Shown in pieces: positions 51,235 to 62,486 of a stretch of DNA of 64,000 nucleotides. The translations under genes were made by a program, and so were the position numbers. The notes under the pieces are model-generated. The model worked only from the letters and a program-made list of their open reading frames with translations. It ran no database searches and was not told the DNA's origin. The stretch lies in contig NZ_WHPN01000426.1 of assembly GCF_009735685.1 (NCBI RefSeq), positions 1 to 64,000 of the forward strand, given 5' to 3'. Position 1 is the stretch's first letter, and every line of letters begins with the position of its first letter. The DNA is from Streptomyces lycii (GTDB taxonomy: Bacteria > Actinomycetota > Actinomycetes > Streptomycetales > Streptomycetaceae).

Positions 51235-52734
51235 ATGACCGCCTCTTCCCCTTCCCAGGACGCCCAGAATTTCCCGCAGAATCTCTCGGCGAGTCTCAGG
51301 GCCGACGCTCTGATGGAAGAGGATGTCGCCCGGGATTACGGGACCGAGGGCCACGACGGCGAGCAGTACGACCGCTCCGACCGTGCGGCGCTGCGACGCG
51401 TCGTGGGCCTGTCCACCGAGCTGGAGGACGTCACCGAGGTCGAGTACCGGCAGCTCCGCCTGGAGCGCGTCGTGCTCGTCGGCGTCTGGACCTCGGGCAC
51501 CGTGGACGACGCCGAGAACAGCCTCGCGGAGCTGGCCGCGCTCGCCGAGACCGCCGGAGCCGTGGTCCTCGACGGTGTCATCCAGCGCCGTGACAAGCCC
51601 GACCCCGCCACGTACATCGGATCCGGCAAGGCGCTGGAGCTGCGCGACGTGGTGCTGGAGACCGGGGCCGACACCGTGGTCTGCGACGGTGAGCTGTCCC
51701 CGGGCCAGCTGATCCACCTGGAGGACGTCGTCAAGGTCAAGGTGGTCGACCGCACCGCCCTGATCCTCGACATCTTCGCCCAGCACGCCAAGTCCCGCGA
51801 GGGCAAGGCACAGGTCTCGCTGGCACAGATGCAGTACATGCTGCCGAGGCTGCGCGGCTGGGGCCAGTCGCTGTCCCGGCAGATGGGTGGCGGTGGCTCC
51901 GGTTCCTCCGGTGGCGGCATGGCCACCCGCGGCCCCGGTGAGACCAAGATCGAGACCGACCGGCGGCGGATCCGCGAGAAGATGGCGAAGATGCGCCGGG
52001 AGATCGCGGAGATGAAGACCGGCCGCGACATCAAGCGGCAGGAACGCCGCCGCAACAAGGTGCCCTCGGTCGCCATCGCCGGATACACCAACGCCGGCAA
52101 GTCGTCGCTGCTGAACCGGCTCACCGGCGCGGGTGTGCTGGTGGAGAACGCCCTGTTCGCCACCCTGGACCCGACCGTGCGCCGCGCCGAGACCCCCAGC
52201 GGGCGGCTCTACACCCTGGCCGACACCGTCGGCTTCGTCCGGCACCTGCCGCACCACCTGGTCGAGGCGTTCCGGTCCACGATGGAGGAGGTCGGCGACT
52301 CCGATCTCATCCTGCACGTCGTGGACGGCTCGCACCCGGTCCCGGAGGAGCAGCTGGCCGCCGTGCGCGAGGTCATCCGTGACGTCGGCGCGGTGGACGT
52401 GCCGGAGATCGTGGTGATCAACAAGGCGGACGCGGCGGACCCGCTGGTCCTCCAGCGGCTGCTGCGCACCGAGAAGCACGCCATCGCGGTGTCGGCCCGC
52501 ACCGGCCGGGGCATCGACGAGCTGCTCGCGCTGATCGACGAGGAACTGCCGCGGCCGCAGGTCGAGATCGAGGCGCTCGTGCCGTACACCCGGGGCGGTC
52601 TGGTCTCGCGGGTGCACGCCGACGGAGAGGTGATCTCCGAGGAGCACACGGGCGACGGCACCCTGCTCAAGGCGCGGGTGCACGCGGAGCTGGCGGCCGA
52701 GCTGGAGCCGTACGTCCTCGCCGGGCAGCGCTGA
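51235..52734 (+). CDS. hflX: HflX-family ribosome-associated GTPase
   Basis: This 499-residue GTPase has the N-terminal HflX domain (YIGSGKALELRDVV, VKVVDRTALILDIFAQHAKSREG in parts), a Gly/Ser-rich linker, and a G domain with Walker A GYTNAGKSS, DTVGFVRHLP and NKAD. HflX binds the 50S subunit and rescues or splits stalled ribosomes, for example after heat or antibiotic stress. AAGGA precedes the ATG. Confidence 0.94.
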   Translation: MTASSPSQDAQNFPQNLSASLRADALMEEDVARDYGTEGHDGEQYDRSDRAALRRVVGLSTELEDVTEVEYRQLRLERVVLVGVWTSGTVDDAENSLAELAALAETAGAVVLDGVIQRRDKPDPATYIGSGKALELRDVVLETGADTVVCDGELSPGQLIHLEDVVKVKVVDRTALILDIFAQHAKSREGKAQVSLAQMQYMLPRLRGWGQSLSRQMGGGGSGSSGGGMATRGPGETKIETDRRRIREKMAKMRREIAEMKTGRDIKRQERRRNKVPSVAIAGYTNAGKSSLLNRLTGAGVLVENALFATLDPTVRRAETPSGRLYTLADTVGFVRHLPHHLVEAFRSTMEEVGDSDLILHVVDGSHPVPEEQLAAVREVIRDVGAVDVPEIVVINKADAADPLVLQRLLRTEKHAIAVSARTGRGIDELLALIDEELPRPQVEIEALVPYTRGGLVSRVHADGEVISEEHTGDGTLLKARVHAELAAELEPYVLAGQR

Positions 52735-52976: not shown

Positions 52977-54140
52977 TTACGGCGCGAACTTCTCGCTGAC
53001 GCCGTCGAAGACCGACTTGGCCCCGTCACCGAGATGCGGGCCCGCCAGCCAGCCGGCGTTCACCGGTCCGATCGAGGTGTTCGACAGCAGCGCCGTCTCG
53101 CCGCCGACCTTCGCGAACCAGCCGCCGCCGGACGAACCACCGGTCATGGTGCAGCCGATCCGGTACATCGTGGGCTGCGCCGCGGACAGCGAGAGACGGC
53201 CCGGGGTGTCGACGCAGCTGTGCATCTTCACGCCGTCGAACGGCGGCGCCGCCGGGTAGCCCCAGGCGCCCATCGAGTCGATGTCCTTCACCGCGGGGGC
53301 GTCGAACGCGACGGGCAGCGCGGTCCCGACCGTCTCCTCCAGGGACTTGCCGCCGCTGTTCTCCGGCTTCACGTGCAGCACGGCGTAGTCGTGCGGCGCT
53401 CCCGCGCCGCCCTCGGCGGCTCCCTCGGAGATCCACTCCTGGGACGTCGACGCCCAGTCGGACCACCAGATGCCGTACGGGGCGACCTCCTCGCGCGGCG
53501 TGTTCGCGATCTGCGACGCCTCGGCGCCGTTGTCGTTGTACGACGGCACGAAGACGATGTTGCGGTACCAGCCGCCCTGCTTGCCGGCGTGCACGCAGTG
53601 GCCGGCCGTCCACACCATGTTGGACTTGCCCGGGTTGGCCGGGTCCTTCACCAGGGTGCCGGAGCAGACCATCGAGCCCTTGGGGCCGTCGAAGAACACC
53701 TTGCCCACCGGGGCGGCGTTCTCGTGGTACGGCGTCGCCACCGGCTCCGCCTCGACGGGCTCGGGCACCGGGTCCGTGACGCCCTGGTCGTCGGAGATGT
53801 CCGGCGGCACCGTCTTGTCCGGCTCCTCGGCGTCGCGCATGCGGCCCGGGTCCCAGAGGTCCTCGATGATCGGGTTGATGAAGTCGTTGGCCTCGCGCAG
53901 CCAGTCGTCCTTCTTCCAGTTGCGCCACTCGCCGTCCCGCCACTGGTCGAGGTCGACGCCCAGTTCCTTGAGCCGCTCGCCGAAGTCGTCGGGGAGCGCG
54001 AGGTCTTCCTGCCCGGTTCCGGCTGAGGAGCCGGAGGAGCCGCCCGCGTCGTCCTCGCCCGGGCCGCACGCGCCGACGGTCAGCGAGAGGACTGCGGTGA
54101 GCGCGGCCGCGGCAAGAGCGGGCCTGCGTATCGATCCCAT
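52977..54140 (-). CDS. Secreted trypsin-like serine peptidase, probable lipoprotein
   Basis: This 387-residue protein has a signal peptide ending in lipobox LTVGAC (Cys25), a Gly/Ser then acidic pro-like region to about residue 150, and an S1-type peptidase domain. The catalytic triad is visible as His in TAGHC, Asp in PHDYAVLHV and Ser in GGSSGGGW. It is predicted to act outside the membrane; the substrate is unknown. GGGAG precedes the ATG. It is divergent from the siderophore operon across 220 bp. Confidence 0.88.
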   Translation of the reverse strand: MGSIRRPALAAAALTAVLSLTVGACGPGEDDAGGSSGSSAGTGQEDLALPDDFGERLKELGVDLDQWRDGEWRNWKKDDWLREANDFINPIIEDLWDPGRMRDAEEPDKTVPPDISDDQGVTDPVPEPVEAEPVATPYHENAAPVGKVFFDGPKGSMVCSGTLVKDPANPGKSNMVWTAGHCVHAGKQGGWYRNIVFVPSYNDNGAEASQIANTPREEVAPYGIWWSDWASTSQEWISEGAAEGGAGAPHDYAVLHVKPENSGGKSLEETVGTALPVAFDAPAVKDIDSMGAWGYPAAPPFDGVKMHSCVDTPGRLSLSAAQPTMYRIGCTMTGGSSGGGWFAKVGGETALLSNTSIGPVNAGWLAGPHLGDGAKSVFDGVSEKFAP

Positions 54141-54360
54141 CGGTGGAACTCCCCGTTGCTCGTCTTCGGTTCTCCGGAACGGTCACGGTGGACCGCTCGG
54201 GCACCCCACTATGCCGGTGCGGGCTAGGACTATCACGAGCGGGTCTCCGGTTCCCGTCCCGCGGCGGGAAATGATCTCGTCGTCGGCCGAATCCTCGCGG
54301 CTCTCCTCCTCGTTGCTACGTAGAGGACCAGAGCGGTGTTCACAGGAGGGCCGATCAGAG

Positions 54361-55434
54361 GTGGCCGTGACCGAGTCTCCCGTGGCGGAGCTGTCCGCCG
54401 GGCAGAGCGGCGTGACGGCGCGCGATCCCGGCGCGCGCTCCCTCCCCGTCGTGCCGGTGCGCGCCCGCGGACTGACGATCGAGGGCGCGGACGGGCGGCG
54501 CTATCTGGACTGCGCGTCCGGCTCGGGCGCGCTGGCCCTCGGGCACAATCACCCGGTGGTGCTCCGGGCGATTCGCTCCGTGCTCGACTCGGGGGCTCCG
54601 CTGCACACCCCGGGGCTGGTGACCGGGGCCGAGGAGGACTTCACCGCCGAACTCCTGCGCACCCTCCCGGCGGGACTCGCCGAACGGGCCCGGGTGCGGT
54701 TCTGCTCCCCGGCGGCGGGCGACCCGGTCCCGGAGGCGCTGCGGCTGGTGGCGGCCGGGGGCCGCCCCGGTACGCTGCTGCGGCCCGTGCGCGGCGACGG
54801 CGGCGTCACGCCCGCCCCGGACGCCCGGGTGCGCGAGCTGCGGGAGCGGACCGCCGCCGCGGGCATCCCGCTGATCGCCGACGAGACGCGGACCGGTGTC
54901 GGCCGGACCGGCGCGTTCTGGGCGGTGGGACACAGCGGCGTCGTGCCCGACGTGATGGTCGTGGCCCGGGCGATCGGCGGCAGCCTGCCGCTGGCCGCCG
55001 TCGTGCACCGCGACGACCTCGTTCCCGGCGCGCCGCAGGACCGCGCGGACAGCTTCCGGGGCAACCAGCTGGCGATGGCCGCGGGCGCCGCGACGCTGGC
55101 GTACGTCCGGGAGAACGGCCTCGCCGCCCGCGCCGCGGACCTCGGCGGGCGGATGCTGCGCCAGCTGCGGGACTTCGCCGCGGGACTGCCCTGCGCCGCC
55201 GACGTGCGGGGCCGCGGGCTGCTGATCGGCATCGCGTTCGCCGCGCCCGGACGCGCCGCCCGGGTGCGGAACGCCTGTCTGCGCCGCGGCCTCATCGTCG
55301 AACTCGCCGGGCGGAAGTCCGGCGTCGTCCTGCTCCTGCCCCCGCTGACCGTCACCGACGAACAGGCCGCCGCGGTCCTGGACCGGCTGACCGATGCCGT
55401 CCAGGCCGAGGCCGCCCTCCGGCACGGCCCCTGA
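54361..55434 (+). CDS. Degenerate class III aminotransferase in siderophore operon
   Basis: This 357-residue protein matches the class III (ornithine/diaminobutyrate-type) aminotransferase fold: DGRRYLDCASGSGALALGHNHP at the start (in parts), PLIADETRTGVGRTGAFWA with the PLP-binding Asp, and FRGNQLAMAAGAATL. Two things are abnormal. The residue that should be the Schiff-base lysine (usually SKAIGG) is Arg203, in VARAIGG, codon CGG at 54967. About 100 residues normally lying between FCSPAAG and the following part (the HGxTxG region) are gone. It therefore should not transaminate. GTG 54361 has AGGAGGG 10 nt upstream. It leads the IucA/IucC operon, so a structural or regulatory role there is possible but unproven. 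Confidence 0.8.
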   Translation: MAVTESPVAELSAGQSGVTARDPGARSLPVVPVRARGLTIEGADGRRYLDCASGSGALALGHNHPVVLRAIRSVLDSGAPLHTPGLVTGAEEDFTAELLRTLPAGLAERARVRFCSPAAGDPVPEALRLVAAGGRPGTLLRPVRGDGGVTPAPDARVRELRERTAAAGIPLIADETRTGVGRTGAFWAVGHSGVVPDVMVVARAIGGSLPLAAVVHRDDLVPGAPQDRADSFRGNQLAMAAGAATLAYVRENGLAARAADLGGRMLRQLRDFAAGLPCAADVRGRGLLIGIAFAAPGRAARVRNACLRRGLIVELAGRKSGVVLLLPPLTVTDEQAAAVLDRLTDAVQAEAALRHGP

Positions 55435-55571: not shown

Positions 55572-57527
55572 GTGCCGCCCGCCCGCGGGCCCCGCGGCCG
55601 CCGACCGCACATGAACGCACACCCCGCCCCCCGGTCCGACACCGCCGCCACCGAAGCCCTCCTGCCGCGCCAGCACGGCCCCGCGGACGCCGGCCCCGGC
55701 TCCGCCCGCGACCCGCTGGAGCACCCCGACCCCCGGGCGGCCGCCGACGCGGCGGCCGCAGAGAACCTGCTGCGCTGCTGGGTGCGGGAGTGCGGTACGC
55801 CCGCCCCTGCCGACGGCCTGCTCCGGCTGCCGCTCCGCTCCGGCGGCTGTGTGCTGCTGGTCCCGGTCCGCCACTGGTCGGCCACCGGCTGGCACCGCTT
55901 CGGGCAGCCCTCGCTGGAGGGCGCCCCCGCCGGCGTACTCGCCGTCGACGCTGTGACGCTCGCCGCCCTCCTGGGACGCGAGGCCGCACACGGAGCGGAT
56001 CCGGCCACCGCGGCCGACGGCGCCGATCTCGTCGGCCGGGTCGCCGACTCCGTGCGCCGCACCGCCGTGTTCCTCGCCGGCCGCCGCGCCGCCGGCGCGG
56101 CACCGGACCACGGCCGCTTCCTGGACGCCGAGCAGTCGCTCGTGCTCGGCCATCCGCTGCACCCGACCCCCAAGAGCCGCGAAGGGCTCTCCGACGCCGA
56201 GTCCCGCGCGTACTCGCCCGAGCTGCGCGGCTCCTTCCCGCTGCACTGGATCGCGGTCGACCGGAGCGTTCTGGCCACCGACTCGGCATGGACCGAACGC
56301 GGCCGGACGGTATCCGCCGAACAGCTCGCGACCCGGCTGGCGGGCGGTCCCGGCACCGGCCCCGCCATCCCGGAGGGCACCGTTCCGCTGCCGCTGCACC
56401 CCTGGCAGGCGCGGGAGATCCGGCACCGGCCCGCCGTCGCCGCACTCCTCGGCGACGGGCTGCTGCACGACCTCGGCCCGTCCGGACCCGACTGGCATCC
56501 GACGTCCTCGGTGCGCACCGTGTTCCGGCCCGGCGCCCCCGCGATGCTCAAGCTGTCCCTGGCCCTGCGCATCACCAACTCCCGCCGGGAGAACCTCGCC
56601 AAGGAGCTGCTGCGCGGCGTCGAGGTGCACCGGCTGCTGCGCAGCGGGCTGGGCGAGGAGTGGCAGCGGGCGCATCCCGGCTTCGACATCGTCCGCGACC
56701 CGGCCTGGCTGGCCGTGCGCGGCACGGACGGCGCTCCGCTGCCCGGCCTGGACGTGATGATCCGGCACAACCCGTTCGGCCCGGAGGACGATGCGGTGTG
56801 CGTCGCCGGGCTGGTCTCGCCGCGGCCGGTGCCGCTCCCCGGGACGACGCAGCCGGGGACGACGCAGCCGGGGACGACGCAGCCCGGCGTGCCCGCGATG
56901 CGGTCCCGGCTGGCGGAGGTCGTCGCCGCGCTCGCGGGCCGTACGGGCAGGACGGCCGCCGCCGTGGCCGCCGAGTGGTTCCTGCGCTATCTGGAGGCCG
57001 TCGTCCGGCCCGTGCTGTGGCTGGACGGGACGGCCGGGGTCGCCCTGGAGGCGCACCAGCAGAACACGCTCGTCCTGCTCGACGCCGAGGGCTGGCCCGC
57101 CGGCGGCCGGTACCGCGACAACCAGGGCTATTACTTCCGCAAGTCCCGGCGGGAGGAACTCGACCGCAGGCTGCCCGGCCTCGGCGTGGAGAGCGACACC
57201 TTCGTCGCCGACGAGATCGCCGACGAGCGCTTCGCCTACTACCTCGGGATCAACAACGTCCTCGGGCTGATCGGCGCGTTCGGCTCCCAGCGCCTCGTCG
57301 ACGAGCGGGTGCTGCTGGCCGCGTTCCGGCGCTTCCTCGGCGACGCCGCGTCCGGGCCCCGGGCGTGCGGCTCGCCGCTGCCCGCCCTCCTGCTGGAGTC
57401 GCCCACGCTGCGCTGCAAGGCGAACCTGCTGACCCGGTTGCACGGACTGGACGAACTGGTCGGCCCGGTCGACACCCAGTCGGTGTACGTCACCCTGGCG
57501 AACCCGCTCGCCGCGCCCGCCGGCTGA
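55572..57527 (+). CDS. IucA/IucC-family siderophore (NIS) synthetase 1
   Basis: This 651-residue ATP-dependent NIS synthetase couples a carboxylate such as citrate to an amine or alcohol. Family motifs are GHPLHPTPKSREG, LPLHPWQ, TSSVRTVF (ATP-binding Ser and Arg), LALRITNSRRE and HQQN. Its place as first synthetase after an aminotransferase-like gene and before the acetyltransferase resembles RhbC/IucA. GTG 55572 is chosen because AAAGGAGA lies 9-10 nt upstream; ATG 55611, in frame, has no ribosome site. A 15-bp x3 repeat at 56841 inserts repeated PGTTQ in a loop. Confidence 0.88.
   Translation: MPPARGPRGRRPHMNAHPAPRSDTAATEALLPRQHGPADAGPGSARDPLEHPDPRAAADAAAAENLLRCWVRECGTPAPADGLLRLPLRSGGCVLLVPVRHWSATGWHRFGQPSLEGAPAGVLAVDAVTLAALLGREAAHGADPATAADGADLVGRVADSVRRTAVFLAGRRAAGAAPDHGRFLDAEQSLVLGHPLHPTPKSREGLSDAESRAYSPELRGSFPLHWIAVDRSVLATDSAWTERGRTVSAEQLATRLAGGPGTGPAIPEGTVPLPLHPWQAREIRHRPAVAALLGDGLLHDLGPSGPDWHPTSSVRTVFRPGAPAMLKLSLALRITNSRRENLAKELLRGVEVHRLLRSGLGEEWQRAHPGFDIVRDPAWLAVRGTDGAPLPGLDVMIRHNPFGPEDDAVCVAGLVSPRPVPLPGTTQPGTTQPGTTQPGVPAMRSRLAEVVAALAGRTGRTAAAVAAEWFLRYLEAVVRPVLWLDGTAGVALEAHQQNTLVLLDAEGWPAGGRYRDNQGYYFRKSRREELDRRLPGLGVESDTFVADEIADERFAYYLGINNVLGLIGAFGSQRLVDERVLLAAFRRFLGDAASGPRACGSPLPALLLESPTLRCKANLLTRLHGLDELVGPVDTQSVYVTLANPLAAPAG
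56841..56885 (+). repeat. 15-bp x3 repeat inside NIS synthetase 1
   Basis: Three units GGGACGACGCAGCCG (last base C in the third) lie at 56841, 56856 and 56871 and encode repeated PGTTQ. Confidence 0.9.
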
Positions 57528-57542
57528 GGCGGGAACGACACC

Positions 57543-58364
57543 GTGCCCGCCCCGGAAAGCACCTCCGGTGAGGACGACACCCTGGAACTGCGGGTGCCGC
57601 TCCCGCCGTTCCGCGCGGAGGACTATCCGGCGCCGGGCACGGAGGACCCGCCGGGCTCCGGGCAACCGGGAGGTGCCGGACACCCGCCGGGCTCCGGGCT
57701 ACCGCCTGGCTCCGGACATCCGCGGAGTGCCGGACACCCGCCGGGTGCCGGGCGTCCGCCGGGCACGGGAGACATCCCGCGCCCGGCGGGCCACGAACTC
57801 CTCGGCGCCGTCGCCGGATGGGGGGAGACCGTCACCCCGGCCGGACGGCTGCGGCTGCTCCCCGTACGCGCCGAACGAGACCTCGCCCTCGTCACCGCCT
57901 GGATGAACGACCCGGCCGTGGCCGCGCTGTGGGGGCTCGGCGGTCCCGAGGAGACGACCGCCGCCCATCTGCGGGCGCAGCTCGACGGGGACGGGCGCAG
58001 CGTGCCCTGTCTCGGCCTGCTGGACGGCGTCCCGATGAGCTACTGGGAGATCTACCGCGCCGATCTCGCCCCTCTCGCGCGCCACTATCCGGCCCGGCCG
58101 CACGACACCGGGCTGCGCCTGCTGATCGGGGCCGTCGCCGACCGGGGCCGCGGAATCGGCAGCTGTCTGCTCCGCGCCGTTTCCGGGCTGGTTCTCGACA
58201 ATCGGCCATCCTGCACCCGTGTCGTGGCCGAACCCGACCTTAGGAACGCCCCTTCCGTGGCAGCCTTTCTCCGTGCGGGTTTCCGTTTCTCCGCCGAGGT
58301 GGGCATCCCCGACAGACGAGCCGCCCTGATGATGCGCGAACGCTCCCTGCGCGACCTCCTCTGA
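57543..58364 (+). CDS. GNAT acetyltransferase of siderophore type (IucB/RhbD-like)
   Basis: This 273-residue protein ends in a GNAT domain of the siderophore-acetylase type (about 100-265): WMNDPAVAALWGLGGP, LGLLDGVPMSYWEIYRADL, GRGIGSCLLRA and VVAEPDLRNAPSVAAFLRAGF. It likely acylates the hydroxylamine or amine building block. The IucB-type DRGxHxLVG stretch reads DTGLRLLIG, lacking that histidine. Residues about 38-80 are seven Gly/Pro hexapeptide repeats (PPGSGx type) from an 18-bp DNA repeat. The GTG start lies 15 bp after the preceding stop, so it is in the same operon. Confidence 0.85.
   Translation: MPAPESTSGEDDTLELRVPLPPFRAEDYPAPGTEDPPGSGQPGGAGHPPGSGLPPGSGHPRSAGHPPGAGRPPGTGDIPRPAGHELLGAVAGWGETVTPAGRLRLLPVRAERDLALVTAWMNDPAVAALWGLGGPEETTAAHLRAQLDGDGRSVPCLGLLDGVPMSYWEIYRADLAPLARHYPARPHDTGLRLLIGAVADRGRGIGSCLLRAVSGLVLDNRPSCTRVVAEPDLRNAPSVAAFLRAGFRFSAEVGIPDRRAALMMRERSLRDLL
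57650..57775 (+). repeat. 18-bp repeats encoding Gly/Pro hexapeptides
   Basis: Seven imperfect 18-bp units encode PPGSGQ, PGGAGH, PPGSGL, PPGSGH, PRSAGH, PPGAGR and PPGTGD before the GNAT domain. Confidence 0.8.
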
Positions 58365-58480
58365 GGCCGCGGCCCGTCCGTCCCGCCCCGGTGACGAAAC
58401 CGCTCGCGCGACGAGCACGCCGTGCCGCTCCCCTGTCCCAGCCCGGCCCGTCCCCGTTTCGTCCCCGAGGAGCAAAGACC

Positions 58481-60238
58481 TTGCATGTGACACCTCAGCA
58501 GCGCCATGAAGCCTGGCAGCGGGCAACTCGCCGCATGTTCGCCAAGATGCTCGGCGAGTTCGCGTACGAGGAAGTCATCACCCCCGAGCCCGACGGCGAC
58601 GACCCCCTCGCCCACCGGCTCACCGTGTCCCCGGAGATCACCTACCGGTTCCGCGCCGGCCGCGGGGCCTACGGACACTGGCGGGTCGACCCGGACTCGA
58701 TCGAACCCTCCGCCGATCCGCTGGAGTTCCTCGCCCGCGCGCACGAGTCCGTGCTCGGTCTCACCGGAGACACCACCGGCCATCTGATCCGCGAGCTGAC
58801 CACCACCCTCGCCGCCGACACCCGCATCGACGAGACCGCGCGCACCGTCGCGGAACTCGCCGACCTCGGCTACGCGGAGCTGGAGGGCCACCAGACCGGC
58901 CACCCCTGGATCGTCGCCAACAAGGGTCGGGTCGGCTTCTCCGCGGCCGACACCGAGCGCTGGGCCCCCGAGTCGCGCGTCCCGCAGCGGCTGCCGTGGC
59001 TCGCCGTGCACCGCGACATCGCCGACTACCGCGGCGTGACCGCGCTGGCGGCACCGGAACGGCTGTACGACGAGGAGCTGTCCCCGAGCACCCGCGCGGC
59101 CTTCGACCGCACGGTCACCGAGCACGGCCGGGACCCCGCCGACTATCTCTGGCTCCCCGTGCACCCCTGGCAGTGGGACGAGAGCATCAGTCACCTGTTC
59201 GCCCCGTACATCGCCGACGCGCGCATCATTCCGCTGCCCGAGGACGAGGACCTGCGGCTGCCGCAGCAGTCGATCCGGACGTTCCTCAATGTCAGCCGCC
59301 CGCAGGGCCGCACCGTCAAGCTCCCGCTCTCGGTGCTGAACACCCTGGTGTGGCGCGGACTGCCGACGGAGCGCACGCTGGCGGCGCCCGCCGTCACCGC
59401 GTGGGTGCACGGCCTGCGCGACGCGGACCCGTTCCTGCGGGACGAGACCCGGGTGATCCTGCTCGGCGAGACCGCGTCCGTCACCGTGGAGCACCCGCTC
59501 TACGACCGGCTGCCGCAGGTTCCGTACCAGTACCGCGAACTGCTCGGCTGCATCTGGCGCGAACCGCTGGCGCCGCGGCTCGACCCGGGCGAGCGGGCCC
59601 GGACGCTGGCGGCCCTGCTGCACACCGATCCGGCCGGTGAGTCCTTCACCGCCGAGCTGGTCCGGCGCTCCGGACTGACTCCCGAGGCCTGGCTCCAGCG
59701 GCTGTTCGCGGCGCTGCTGCCGCCGCTGCTGCACTTCCTCTACCGGTACGGCACCGTCTTCTCCCCGCACGGCGAGAACGCCATCGTGGTCTTCGACGAG
59801 CGGGACGTGCCGGTGCGGCTGGCCGTGAAGGACTTCGTCGACGACGTGAACGTCAGCTCCAGCCCGCTGCCCGAGCACGCCGGCATGCCCGACGACGTGC
59901 GCGAGGTGCTGCTGACCGAGGAGCCCGCGTTTCTGACCCAGTTCATCCACTCCGGTCTGTTCGTCGGCGTCTTCCGCTACCTCGCGCCGCTGTGCGCGGA
60001 CCAGCTGGACGTGCCGGAGGACACCTTCTGGTCCCTCGTACGGGCGGAGATCGTCCGGCACCACGCCCGGTTCCCCGAGCTGAAGGAGCGGTTCGAGATC
60101 TTCGACCTGCTCACGCCCCGGATCGACCGGCTGTGCCTGAACCGCAACCGGCTCCACCTCGACGGCTACCGCGACCGGTCGGACCGGCCGCACGCCGCCG
60201 TCCACGGCACCGTGGCCAATCCGCTCGCCCGGGAATGA
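58481..60238 (+). CDS. IucA/IucC-family siderophore (NIS) synthetase 2, AlcC/DesD-like
   Basis: This 585-residue NIS synthetase has EGHQTGHPWIVANKGRVGF (in parts), LPVHPWQ, QSIRTFLN and SPHGENAIVV, the last typical of the AlcC/DesD/IucC branch that performs the final condensation. It is the last gene of the four-gene siderophore operon. TTG 58481 is chosen because GAGGAG lies 8 nt upstream; GTG 58487 is close behind, and GTG 58391 would precede that ribosome site. Confidence 0.88.
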   Translation: MHVTPQQRHEAWQRATRRMFAKMLGEFAYEEVITPEPDGDDPLAHRLTVSPEITYRFRAGRGAYGHWRVDPDSIEPSADPLEFLARAHESVLGLTGDTTGHLIRELTTTLAADTRIDETARTVAELADLGYAELEGHQTGHPWIVANKGRVGFSAADTERWAPESRVPQRLPWLAVHRDIADYRGVTALAAPERLYDEELSPSTRAAFDRTVTEHGRDPADYLWLPVHPWQWDESISHLFAPYIADARIIPLPEDEDLRLPQQSIRTFLNVSRPQGRTVKLPLSVLNTLVWRGLPTERTLAAPAVTAWVHGLRDADPFLRDETRVILLGETASVTVEHPLYDRLPQVPYQYRELLGCIWREPLAPRLDPGERARTLAALLHTDPAGESFTAELVRRSGLTPEAWLQRLFAALLPPLLHFLYRYGTVFSPHGENAIVVFDERDVPVRLAVKDFVDDVNVSSSPLPEHAGMPDDVREVLLTEEPAFLTQFIHSGLFVGVFRYLAPLCADQLDVPEDTFWSLVRAEIVRHHARFPELKERFEIFDLLTPRIDRLCLNRNRLHLDGYRDRSDRPHAAVHGTVANPLARE

Positions 60239-60410: not shown

Positions 60411-62486
60411 ATGACGAAGCCCTCCCTTCCCGACCTGCTGCACGCCGCCGTCACCGCCGTGGGCGGTACGGAGCGGCCCGGCCAGGTGACCATGGCCGAA
60501 TCCGTCGCCGAGGCCGTCGACGACGGCTCCCATCTGCTCGTCCAGGCCGGTACGGGCACGGGCAAGTCCCTCGGCTATCTCGTGCCCGCGCTCGCGCACG
60601 GCGAGAAGGTCGTGGTCGCGACGGCGACCCTGGCGCTCCAGCGGCAGCTGGTGGAGCGGGACCTCCCGCGCACGGTGGAGGCGCTCCATCCGCTGCTCCG
60701 CCGGCGCCCCGAGTTCGCCATGCTCAAGGGCCGCTCCAACTACCTCTGCCTGCACCGGCTGCACGAAGGCGTGCCGCAGGAGGAAGAGGACGGCCTGTTC
60801 GACGTCTTCGAGTCGGCGACCCCCACCAGCAAGCTGGGCAAGGACCTGCTGCGGATGCGGGACTGGGCCGACGAGACGGAGACGGGCGACCGGGACGCCC
60901 TCACCCCGGGCGTGTCCGACCGGGCCTGGTCCCAGGTCTCCGTCACGTCCCGGGAATGTCTCGGCGCCACCCGGTGCGCGTACGGCGCCGAGTGCTTCGC
61001 CGAAGCGGCCCGCGAGCGCGCCAAGCTGGCGGACGTCGTCGTCACGAACCACGCGCTGCTCGCGATCGACGCCATCGAGGGCGCGCCGGTGCTGCCCGGC
61101 CACGAGGTGCTGATCGTCGACGAGGCGCACGAACTGGTCTCCCGGGTCACCGGCGCCGCGACCGGCGAGCTGTCCCCCGGCGGGGTCAACCGCGCGGTCC
61201 GCCGGGCGTCCAAGCTGGTCAACGAGAAGGCGGCCGACGCCCTGCAGACCGCGGCCGAGGGCTTCGAGCGGCTGATGGAGCTGGCTCTCCCGGGCCGGAT
61301 CGAGGAGGTGCCGGAGGATCTCGGGTATGCCGTGATGGCTCTCCGGGACGCCGCCCGGACGGTCATCTCGGCCATCGCGGGCACCCGCGACAAGTCCGTC
61401 CAGGACGAGGACGCCGTGCGCAAGCAGGCGCTGGCCTCGGTGGAGAACGTCCACGCGGTGGCGGAGCGCATCGCCAACGGCTCCGAGTACGACGTCATCT
61501 GGTGCGAGCGGCACGACCGGTTCGGCGCGTCGCTGCGGGTCGCGCCGCTGTCGGTCTCCGGACTGCTGCGGGAGAAGCTGTTCGCCGACCGGTCCGTGGT
61601 CCTCACCTCCGCGACCCTGAAGCTGGGCGGTGACTTCAACGGCGTGGGCGCGTCGCTGGGCCTGTCGCCGGAGGGAGCCGCCGGGCCGCCGGGAGCCGTG
61701 GGGTCCTCACGGCCGGCGGGGGCCCCGGCGGGCTCCACGCCGGGGAGCGGCCCGGCGGAGGACGGCCCCGCCGCGGAGATTCCCCGCTGGAGGGGTATCG
61801 ACGTCGGCTCGCCGTTCGACTATCCCAAGCAGGGCATCCTCTACGTCGCCCAGCATCTGGCGCAGCCGGGCCGGGAGGGCAGCCGGGGGGACATGCTGGA
61901 CGAGCTGACGGAGCTGGTGGAGGCCGCGGGCGGGCGGACGCTCGGTCTCTTCTCTTCCATGCGGGGAGCCCAGTCCGCGGCCGAGGCGCTGCGCGGCCGG
62001 CTCGACGTGCCGATCCTGCTGCAGGGCGAGGAGACGCTCGGTGAGCTGATCCGTACGTTCGCCGCCGACGACCGGACCTGTCTCTTCGGGACGCTGTCGC
62101 TGTGGCAGGGGGTGGACGTGCCCGGGCCGAGCTGCCAGCTGGTGGTGATGGACCGGATTCCGTTCCCGCGGCCGGACGACCCGCTGATGAGCGCGCGGCA
62201 GAAGGCGGTGGAGGAGAGCGGGGGGAACGGCTTCATGGCCGTCGCGGCGACGCATGCCGCCCTGCTGATGGCCCAGGGCTCGGGCCGGCTGGTCAGGGCG
62301 TCCGGGGACCGGGGAGTGGTCGCCGTACTCGATCCGAGGCTCGCCAAGGCGCGGTACGGCAGTTTTCTGCGGGCCTCGATGCCGGACTTCTGGTACACCA
62401 CGGACCGGAACCAGGTCCGCAGGTCCCTGGCCGCCATCGACCGGGCGGCCAGGGAGGCAGGAGAGTCCGGGCAGGCCCGGGACTGA
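60411..62486 (+). CDS. dinG: DinG/XPD-family ATP-dependent DNA helicase
   Basis: This 691-residue superfamily 2 helicase has Walker A GTGTGKSLGY, four spaced cysteines (SNYLCLHR, then ECLGATRCAYGAECF) that suit an XPD-type 4Fe-4S cluster, DEAH box IVDEAHEL and C-terminal motifs LFGTLSLWQGVD and GRLVRASGDRG. DinG-type enzymes unwind forked DNA and R-loops from 5' to 3' and are often SOS genes. I found no clear LexA box in front. A Gly/Pro-rich insert lies at about residues 420-455. Confidence 0.92.
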   Translation: MTKPSLPDLLHAAVTAVGGTERPGQVTMAESVAEAVDDGSHLLVQAGTGTGKSLGYLVPALAHGEKVVVATATLALQRQLVERDLPRTVEALHPLLRRRPEFAMLKGRSNYLCLHRLHEGVPQEEEDGLFDVFESATPTSKLGKDLLRMRDWADETETGDRDALTPGVSDRAWSQVSVTSRECLGATRCAYGAECFAEAARERAKLADVVVTNHALLAIDAIEGAPVLPGHEVLIVDEAHELVSRVTGAATGELSPGGVNRAVRRASKLVNEKAADALQTAAEGFERLMELALPGRIEEVPEDLGYAVMALRDAARTVISAIAGTRDKSVQDEDAVRKQALASVENVHAVAERIANGSEYDVIWCERHDRFGASLRVAPLSVSGLLREKLFADRSVVLTSATLKLGGDFNGVGASLGLSPEGAAGPPGAVGSSRPAGAPAGSTPGSGPAEDGPAAEIPRWRGIDVGSPFDYPKQGILYVAQHLAQPGREGSRGDMLDELTELVEAAGGRTLGLFSSMRGAQSAAEALRGRLDVPILLQGEETLGELIRTFAADDRTCLFGTLSLWQGVDVPGPSCQLVVMDRIPFPRPDDPLMSARQKAVEESGGNGFMAVAATHAALLMAQGSGRLVRASGDRGVVAVLDPRLAKARYGSFLRASMPDFWYTTDRNQVRRSLAAIDRAAREAGESGQARD

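Follow-up and report, generated by a model that had tools for sequence, protein, structure and literature searches.

Recurrent loss of the catalytic lysine in CsbA, an aminotransferase homologue encoded beside an NIS synthetase gene in Streptomyces

Introduction

Why should a gene whose product has lost the catalytic lysine of its enzyme family persist as an intact reading frame? The question is raised by a class III aminotransferase homologue in Streptomyces lycii, encoded at 54361–55434 of the window, a 64,000 nt stretch comprising positions 1 to 64,000 of contig NZ_WHPN01000426.1. A sequence-only reading of this DNA had described the product as a shortened aminotransferase with arginine in place of lysine, and had proposed that it is a maintained pseudoenzyme. 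Here the locus is described, the homologue is compared with its orthologues across the genus, and the explanations for its persistence are weighed.

The csb locus

The gene order in the window is hflX – trypsin-like gene – csbA – csbB – csbC – csbD – dinG, the arrangement by which loci of CsbA orthologues were recognized (csbD being optional). The features of the locus are:

51235–52734, hflX, upstream landmark (gene calls)
52977–54140, − strand, trypsin-like secreted protein, upstream landmark (gene calls and orthologous loci)
54361–55434, + strand, csbA-type pseudo-aminotransferase of class III fold, 357 aa, GTG start (sequence, profile matches and model)
55611–57527, + strand, csbB, IucA/IucC-type NIS synthetase with intact GHPLHPTPKSR, HPWQ, TSSVRTV, MLKLSLALRITNSRR, HQQN and DNQGYY
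57543–58364, + strand, csbC, GNAT acyltransferase (Acetyltransf_8) extended at its N-terminus by a Gly/Pro-rich stretch
58391–60238, + strand, csbD, another NIS synthetase of IucA/IucC type, which most other csb loci with degenerate csbA lack
60411–62486, + strand, dinG, landmark 3′ of the csb genes

PMC9600172 describes csb as a cryptic cluster of Streptomyces sp. YIM 121038 with the order csbA-csbB-csbC-csbD-dinG, in which CsbA is annotated as a diaminobutyrate-2-oxoglutarate transaminase. No product of the cluster was detected; CsbC was demonstrated to act as an N-succinyltransferase. A poly-proline extension of CsbC is also described there; in the window the N-terminal extension is made up of Gly/Pro-rich repeats, PPGSGxP (57543–57800).

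The absence of iucD from csb, also remarked upon in PMC9600172, extends to the window, where no N-hydroxylase or monooxygenase gene was recognized among the csb genes. Likewise, there is no recognizable IdeR/DmdR-type iron box 5′ of csbA, the best matches being 9/19 in the window and 8–12/19 in 17 other loci. Lacking both the hydroxylase gene and the iron box, the locus does not conform to a hydroxamate NIS siderophore operon of the aerobactin or rhizobactin type, and an iron-scavenging label for csb is therefore not secure. SCO5799–SCO5801 of S. coelicolor is known as a ‘putative siderophore’ locus (PMC7324645, PMC3224560). CsbB-type matches occur in 283 of the 296 Streptomyces genomes sampled. 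Judging by gene order, we take the window csb and this S. coelicolor locus to be of one kind, and SCO5799 to be the CsbA orthologue.

Sequence and predicted structure of CsbA

The features within and immediately upstream of csbA, all on the + strand, are:

54344–54349, Shine–Dalgarno AGGAGG, 11 bases 5′ of the GTG start (sequence)
54706–54732, former PLP-phosphate loop, SPAAGDPVP against GPAGTDAVE (alignment with canonical CsbA)
54760–54775, junction of the in-frame loss of ~72 residues, by which AYHGMTAG and the next block are gone (alignment)
54880–54891, DETR (D174-E175-T-R; canonical DEVQ), with Asp and Glu retained and Gln gone
54967–54969, CGG, encoding Arg203 where the Schiff-base lysine would be (sequence and alignment)

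The intact frame and good ribosome site claimed for this gene are borne out, and its codon-position GC (0.83/0.58/0.94) is typical of Streptomyces coding DNA. The product matches PF00202 with 198 bits (cut-off 30.5) and thus belongs to the class III aminotransferase fold. Its best NCBIfam family by score is PRK06938/dat at 320.8 bits, well below the cut-off of 671, and TIGR00709 scores 231.6 bits, under its cut-off of 401.6. Falling below both curated cut-offs, CsbA of the window does not qualify as a member of the diaminobutyrate transaminase family.

The residues expected of an enzyme are missing. CsbA of the window reads VARAIGG where the 165 unique canonical orthologues read (L/M)SKAIGG, so that the Schiff-base lysine is replaced by Arg203, as had been noticed from the letters. 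The observations on DETR and on the missing HGxTxG region also hold when the protein is aligned with canonical orthologues; the latter was removed by the in-frame loss. The size of that loss had been overestimated at about 100 residues, since alignment with a full-length orthologue places it at canonical residues ~112–183, or about 72. Further pocket motifs are altered, from GPAGTDAVE to SPAAGDPVP, from EPVQGEGG to RPVRGDGG and from GTFRGNQ to DSFRGNQ. HGxTxG, the Gly-Thr loop, the Gln of DEVQ and the Thr of GTFRGNQ, which make up the PLP ring and phosphate sites, are thus all deleted or changed. Without these residues, the protein would be expected neither to bind PLP nor to transaminate.

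The AlphaFold2 (AF2) model of CsbA from the window (pLDDT 80.7, pTM 0.81) superimposes on the DABA transaminase EctB (6rl5) with a TM score of 0.82, and on most class III enzymes among the matches listed with 0.79–0.85. The aminotransferase fold is therefore predicted to be retained. A comparison model of canonical CsbA reached pLDDT 70.5 but was built from a shallower alignment, so that the two models do not form a fair contrast. With the catalytic residues gone by alignment and the fold retained by predicted structure, CsbA of the window can be classed as a putative pseudoenzyme.

Distribution of degenerate csbA in Streptomyces

CsbA sequences were drawn from 100 CsbB-anchored genomes, from the loci of the first genus searches and from 80 loci of another collection. 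The unique sequences at the csb locus comprise 165 canonical and 36 degenerate ones. Eighteen of the latter have lost the lysine, which is replaced by Gly (5), Gln (4), Arg (4), Glu (2), Thr (1), His (1) or Pro (1). Species with degenerate csbA include S. parvulus (L056) and S. coelicoflavus (L055); the copy in S. coelicoflavus, a relative of S. coelicolor, has kept the lysine. The CsbB-anchored genomes are those with the CsbB most like that of the window, and their percentages are therefore not genus-wide frequencies; 69 of the 100 are canonical, about 15 are degenerate and 15 have no csbA beside CsbB. In this raw tally, as in the raw states on the tree, L241 and L042 are still included as degenerate because of an alignment gap (they are canonical in the retention analysis and clade counts), G012 counts as lacking csbA only since its best CsbB match sits away from its canonical csbA, and two of the loci in question for absence, L187 and L231, sit at contig ends.

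On the CsbB tree, lysine loss occupies about 11 clades, degeneracy 16 and absence of csbA 6 (15 leaves), all approximate counts, being those of maximal clades with losses treated as irreversible on the protein tree of a possibly mobile gene. The scatter of lysine loss and degeneracy over this tree shows that the change was repeated, with some ten or more independent losses of the lysine in the genus. In most of the csbA-less loci checked, csbB comes straight after the trypsin-like gene at the usual locus. A panD-like gene (aspartate decarboxylase, recognized by eye) lies 5′ of csbB in two csbA-less loci, L152 (G214) and L195 (G120).

The nearest csb relative found, the window's sister locus L176 in genome G198, carries Thr at the lysine site and retains the block deleted in the window. 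This bears in two ways on the sequence-only reading, in which full-length, lysine-bearing orthologues in close relatives would have pointed to recent decay. Most congeners do have such orthologues, but the nearest relative lacks the lysine and there are many independent losses in other lineages. Arg replaces the lysine in 4 of the 18 cases, and neither Arg203 nor the deletion is shared by L176.

Selection on degenerate csbA

No frameshift or internal stop was found in any degenerate copy of csbA, though many have indels. Pairs of degenerate copies give GY94 omega values of 0.07–0.18 (LRT against 1 = 67–214) over a synonymous divergence of 0.5–2; canonical pairs give about 0.04–0.05. The roughly twofold higher omega of the degenerate pairs, a rough factor because only six canonical pairs were available at matched divergence, indicates some relaxation of selection. 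Pairwise tests were used because three-taxon branch omegas suffered from saturated outgroup branches and weak single-branch tests; the pair L063/L103 was left out as saturated (dS ~39).

The most telling pairs are L060/L103, which share a Lys-to-Gly replacement and the same deletion (omega 0.07–0.09), and L105/L204, both with Gln (omega 0.09), because both members share the replacement. In these pairs purifying selection has continued after the loss. The window and L176 give an omega of 0.10, although a single common loss is not certain for these two; the model-free differences by codon position (46/56/107, p 2e-7) agree with it. Relaxation is greatest in the active-site segment (omega 0.24–0.41 in L055/L219/L222), and the N-terminal block stands at 0.03–0.1 in several pairs. 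Selection on degenerate csbA is thus somewhat relaxed yet clearly present.

The pattern of residues retained points the same way. In the alignment, 212 columns are invariant in canonical CsbA, and the median column is retained in 92 % of degenerate copies. The least-retained columns are mainly those of the cofactor site and the HGxTxG block (T124 8 %, G122 25 %, Q223 28 %, H121 31 %, T94 39 %, T277 47 %, K249 50 %), with few others, such as K65, F73 and H274. Near-fixed in degenerate copies are most of the N-terminal 42 residues, GVGRTG, IGGSLP, RGNQLA, RRGLIV and LLPPL. Also mostly retained are two cofactor-site residues, Asp220 and Glu221, and the arginine in VRGRGL. The maintained pseudoenzyme first proposed, for which a dN/dS comparison had been suggested as a check, finds support in the open frame of every degenerate copy, in a dN/dS far under 1 between copies with a shared loss, and in the concentration of the losses at the cofactor site.

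Possible role of CsbA and alternative explanations

The reading to which we incline, and which we hold to be moderately probable, is that CsbA is a recurrent, selectively maintained pseudoenzyme that has lost catalysis and serves a non-catalytic role, most likely as a partner of CsbB. Catalysis by CsbA would have become dispensable, most likely through diaminobutyrate made by EctB, which is encoded in the window genome (TIGR02407, 644 bits) and could supply it. Selection would then retain the non-catalytic role of CsbA. Most likely it would serve the neighbouring CsbB, which has an intact active site, as folded partner, scaffold or allosteric subunit. CsbA of the window probably has a non-enzymatic job.

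The shared operon, the co-retention of the two genes and the conserved core residues of CsbA suggest a partnership with CsbB. In almost all loci with degenerate csbA, the window included, each NIS-synthetase motif checked is present in CsbB. Against a partner role, 15 of the leaves sampled, in 6 clades, have CsbB but no csbA, mostly at the same locus. CsbB can therefore persist without CsbA, and the role would not be essential genus-wide. The exceptions to intact CsbB motifs are S. caatingaensis (L060), Streptomyces sp. AV19 (L103) and S. orinoci (L063), in which CsbB has also lost motifs with its frame open: the Lys of MLKLS is Arg, DNQGYY is gone and, in L063, so is GHPLHP. Partnership with an active CsbB is thus no universal reason for the retention of CsbA. 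The csbB genes of L060 and L103 are themselves under an omega of ~0.1. Both of these loci lack csbC.

A bolder form of the preferred reading, which we put forward only tentatively and with more doubt than belief, is that csbA was turned some ten times into a cofactor-free structural or allosteric subunit of csb, in which the fold outweighs the chemistry, the group of S. caatingaensis and S. orinoci having gone further in that CsbB too has lost motifs while both genes stay under purifying selection. If true, csb would run on a protein complex in which the fold of the transaminase subunit counts above its chemistry.

The strongest rival, a serious one that we nevertheless think somewhat improbable, is slow decay. 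The transaminase would have become redundant, through supply by EctB or a changed product, and the gene would be on its way out; frames would stay open since csbA is the first gene of the operon and a frameshift in it would have a polar effect on csbB, and the residual constraint would be that of folding, through avoidance of misfolding. The intact, degenerate and absent states of one locus do resemble a decay series, and the raised omega of degenerate pairs, highest over the active site, fits it as well. Besides EctB in the window genome, a full-length homologue of 37–43 % identity is present in nearly all sampled genomes. Degenerate csbA also accompanies loss of csbD, which is kept in 2 of 19 such loci against 23 of 55 others (Fisher p 0.013, uncorrected for phylogeny), but the window locus retains csbD despite its degenerate csbA. 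Against this rival, the omega of degenerate pairs is too low for plain decay over such synonymous divergence, part of which followed a shared loss, and several pairs have a still lower value in the N-terminal block. If polarity were all that was selected against, the amino acids would be left unconserved.

CsbA might instead be a dead regulatory or hetero-oligomer subunit whose live partner, a class III transaminase, is the product of a distant gene, either EctB or a second CsbA, as in serine palmitoyltransferase. Class III active sites form at the dimer interface, and two genomes that are degenerate at the csb locus, G198 (C151) and G219 (C160), carry a full-length copy of 72 % identity elsewhere, although the G198 assembly has a completeness of 81 % and a contamination of 5 %. 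No close second CsbA copy is present in the window genome, the nearest live homologue there being EctB at 41 %, and Thr277, which reaches into the active site of the partner, is among the poorly kept residues noted above. We regard such a pairing as improbable. The window genome also encodes two other class III aminotransferases, L134 and L135 (contigs C136 and C48), which have no NCBIfam match at E 1e-100.

It is less probable again, and in our view very unlikely, that CsbA is still an enzyme, one of different chemistry in which some residue has taken over the catalytic part of lysine. Such an enzyme could account for the retention of Asp220, Glu221 and the VRGRGL Arg, but seven different residues replace the lysine, the phosphate loop is unconserved and HGxTxG is gone; no new conserved active-site constellation was seen among the degenerate copies. 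Finally, although the window belongs to a 430-contig draft assembly, an artefact of sequencing or assembly can practically be dismissed given the normal codon-position GC, the in-frame loss and the independent degenerate copies in many genomes, sequencing error being very unlikely because CGG differs from AAG at two bases and the same site carries other substitutions in other genomes.

Comparison with known systems

In gene order and product families the window locus matches csb of YIM 121038 as set out in the available part of PMC9600172; unlike the CsbA annotated there, CsbA of the window is without the lysine, the phosphate loop and HGxTxG, and that part of the paper contains no discussion of an inactive CsbA. 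For many csbA genes the annotation as diaminobutyrate transaminase is probably misleading, since their products are unlikely to be enzymes, and this bears on predicting the csb product. With EctB and Dat (TIGR00709, PDB 6rl5), CsbA of the window shares a common fold but not the PLP-binding residues, and it stays below the family cut-offs.

The TSB-like pseudoenzyme of eudicots (PMC12727527) is likewise a homologue of a PLP enzyme that has lost its own catalysis, and it allosterically activates a partner enzyme; it differs in its tryptophan-synthase fold, in being a paralogue beside a live TSB and in having an experimentally established mechanism. CsbA of the window has no live copy at its locus and is known from sequence and predicted structure. 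Dead partners or regulators of PLP fold also include LCB1/SPTLC1, the non-catalytic subunit of serine palmitoyltransferase, the ODC antizyme inhibitor and the prozymes of trypanosomes. To our knowledge, each of these arose once, long ago, and has a known live partner, and dead enzymes retained as partners are usually single old events beside a live paralogue. In csbA, by contrast, a single locus has undergone the loss many times within one genus. Since live, dead and absent states occur many times at this one Streptomyces locus with no adjacent live copy, the conversion of an enzyme to a pseudoenzyme is open here to comparative and genetic tests.
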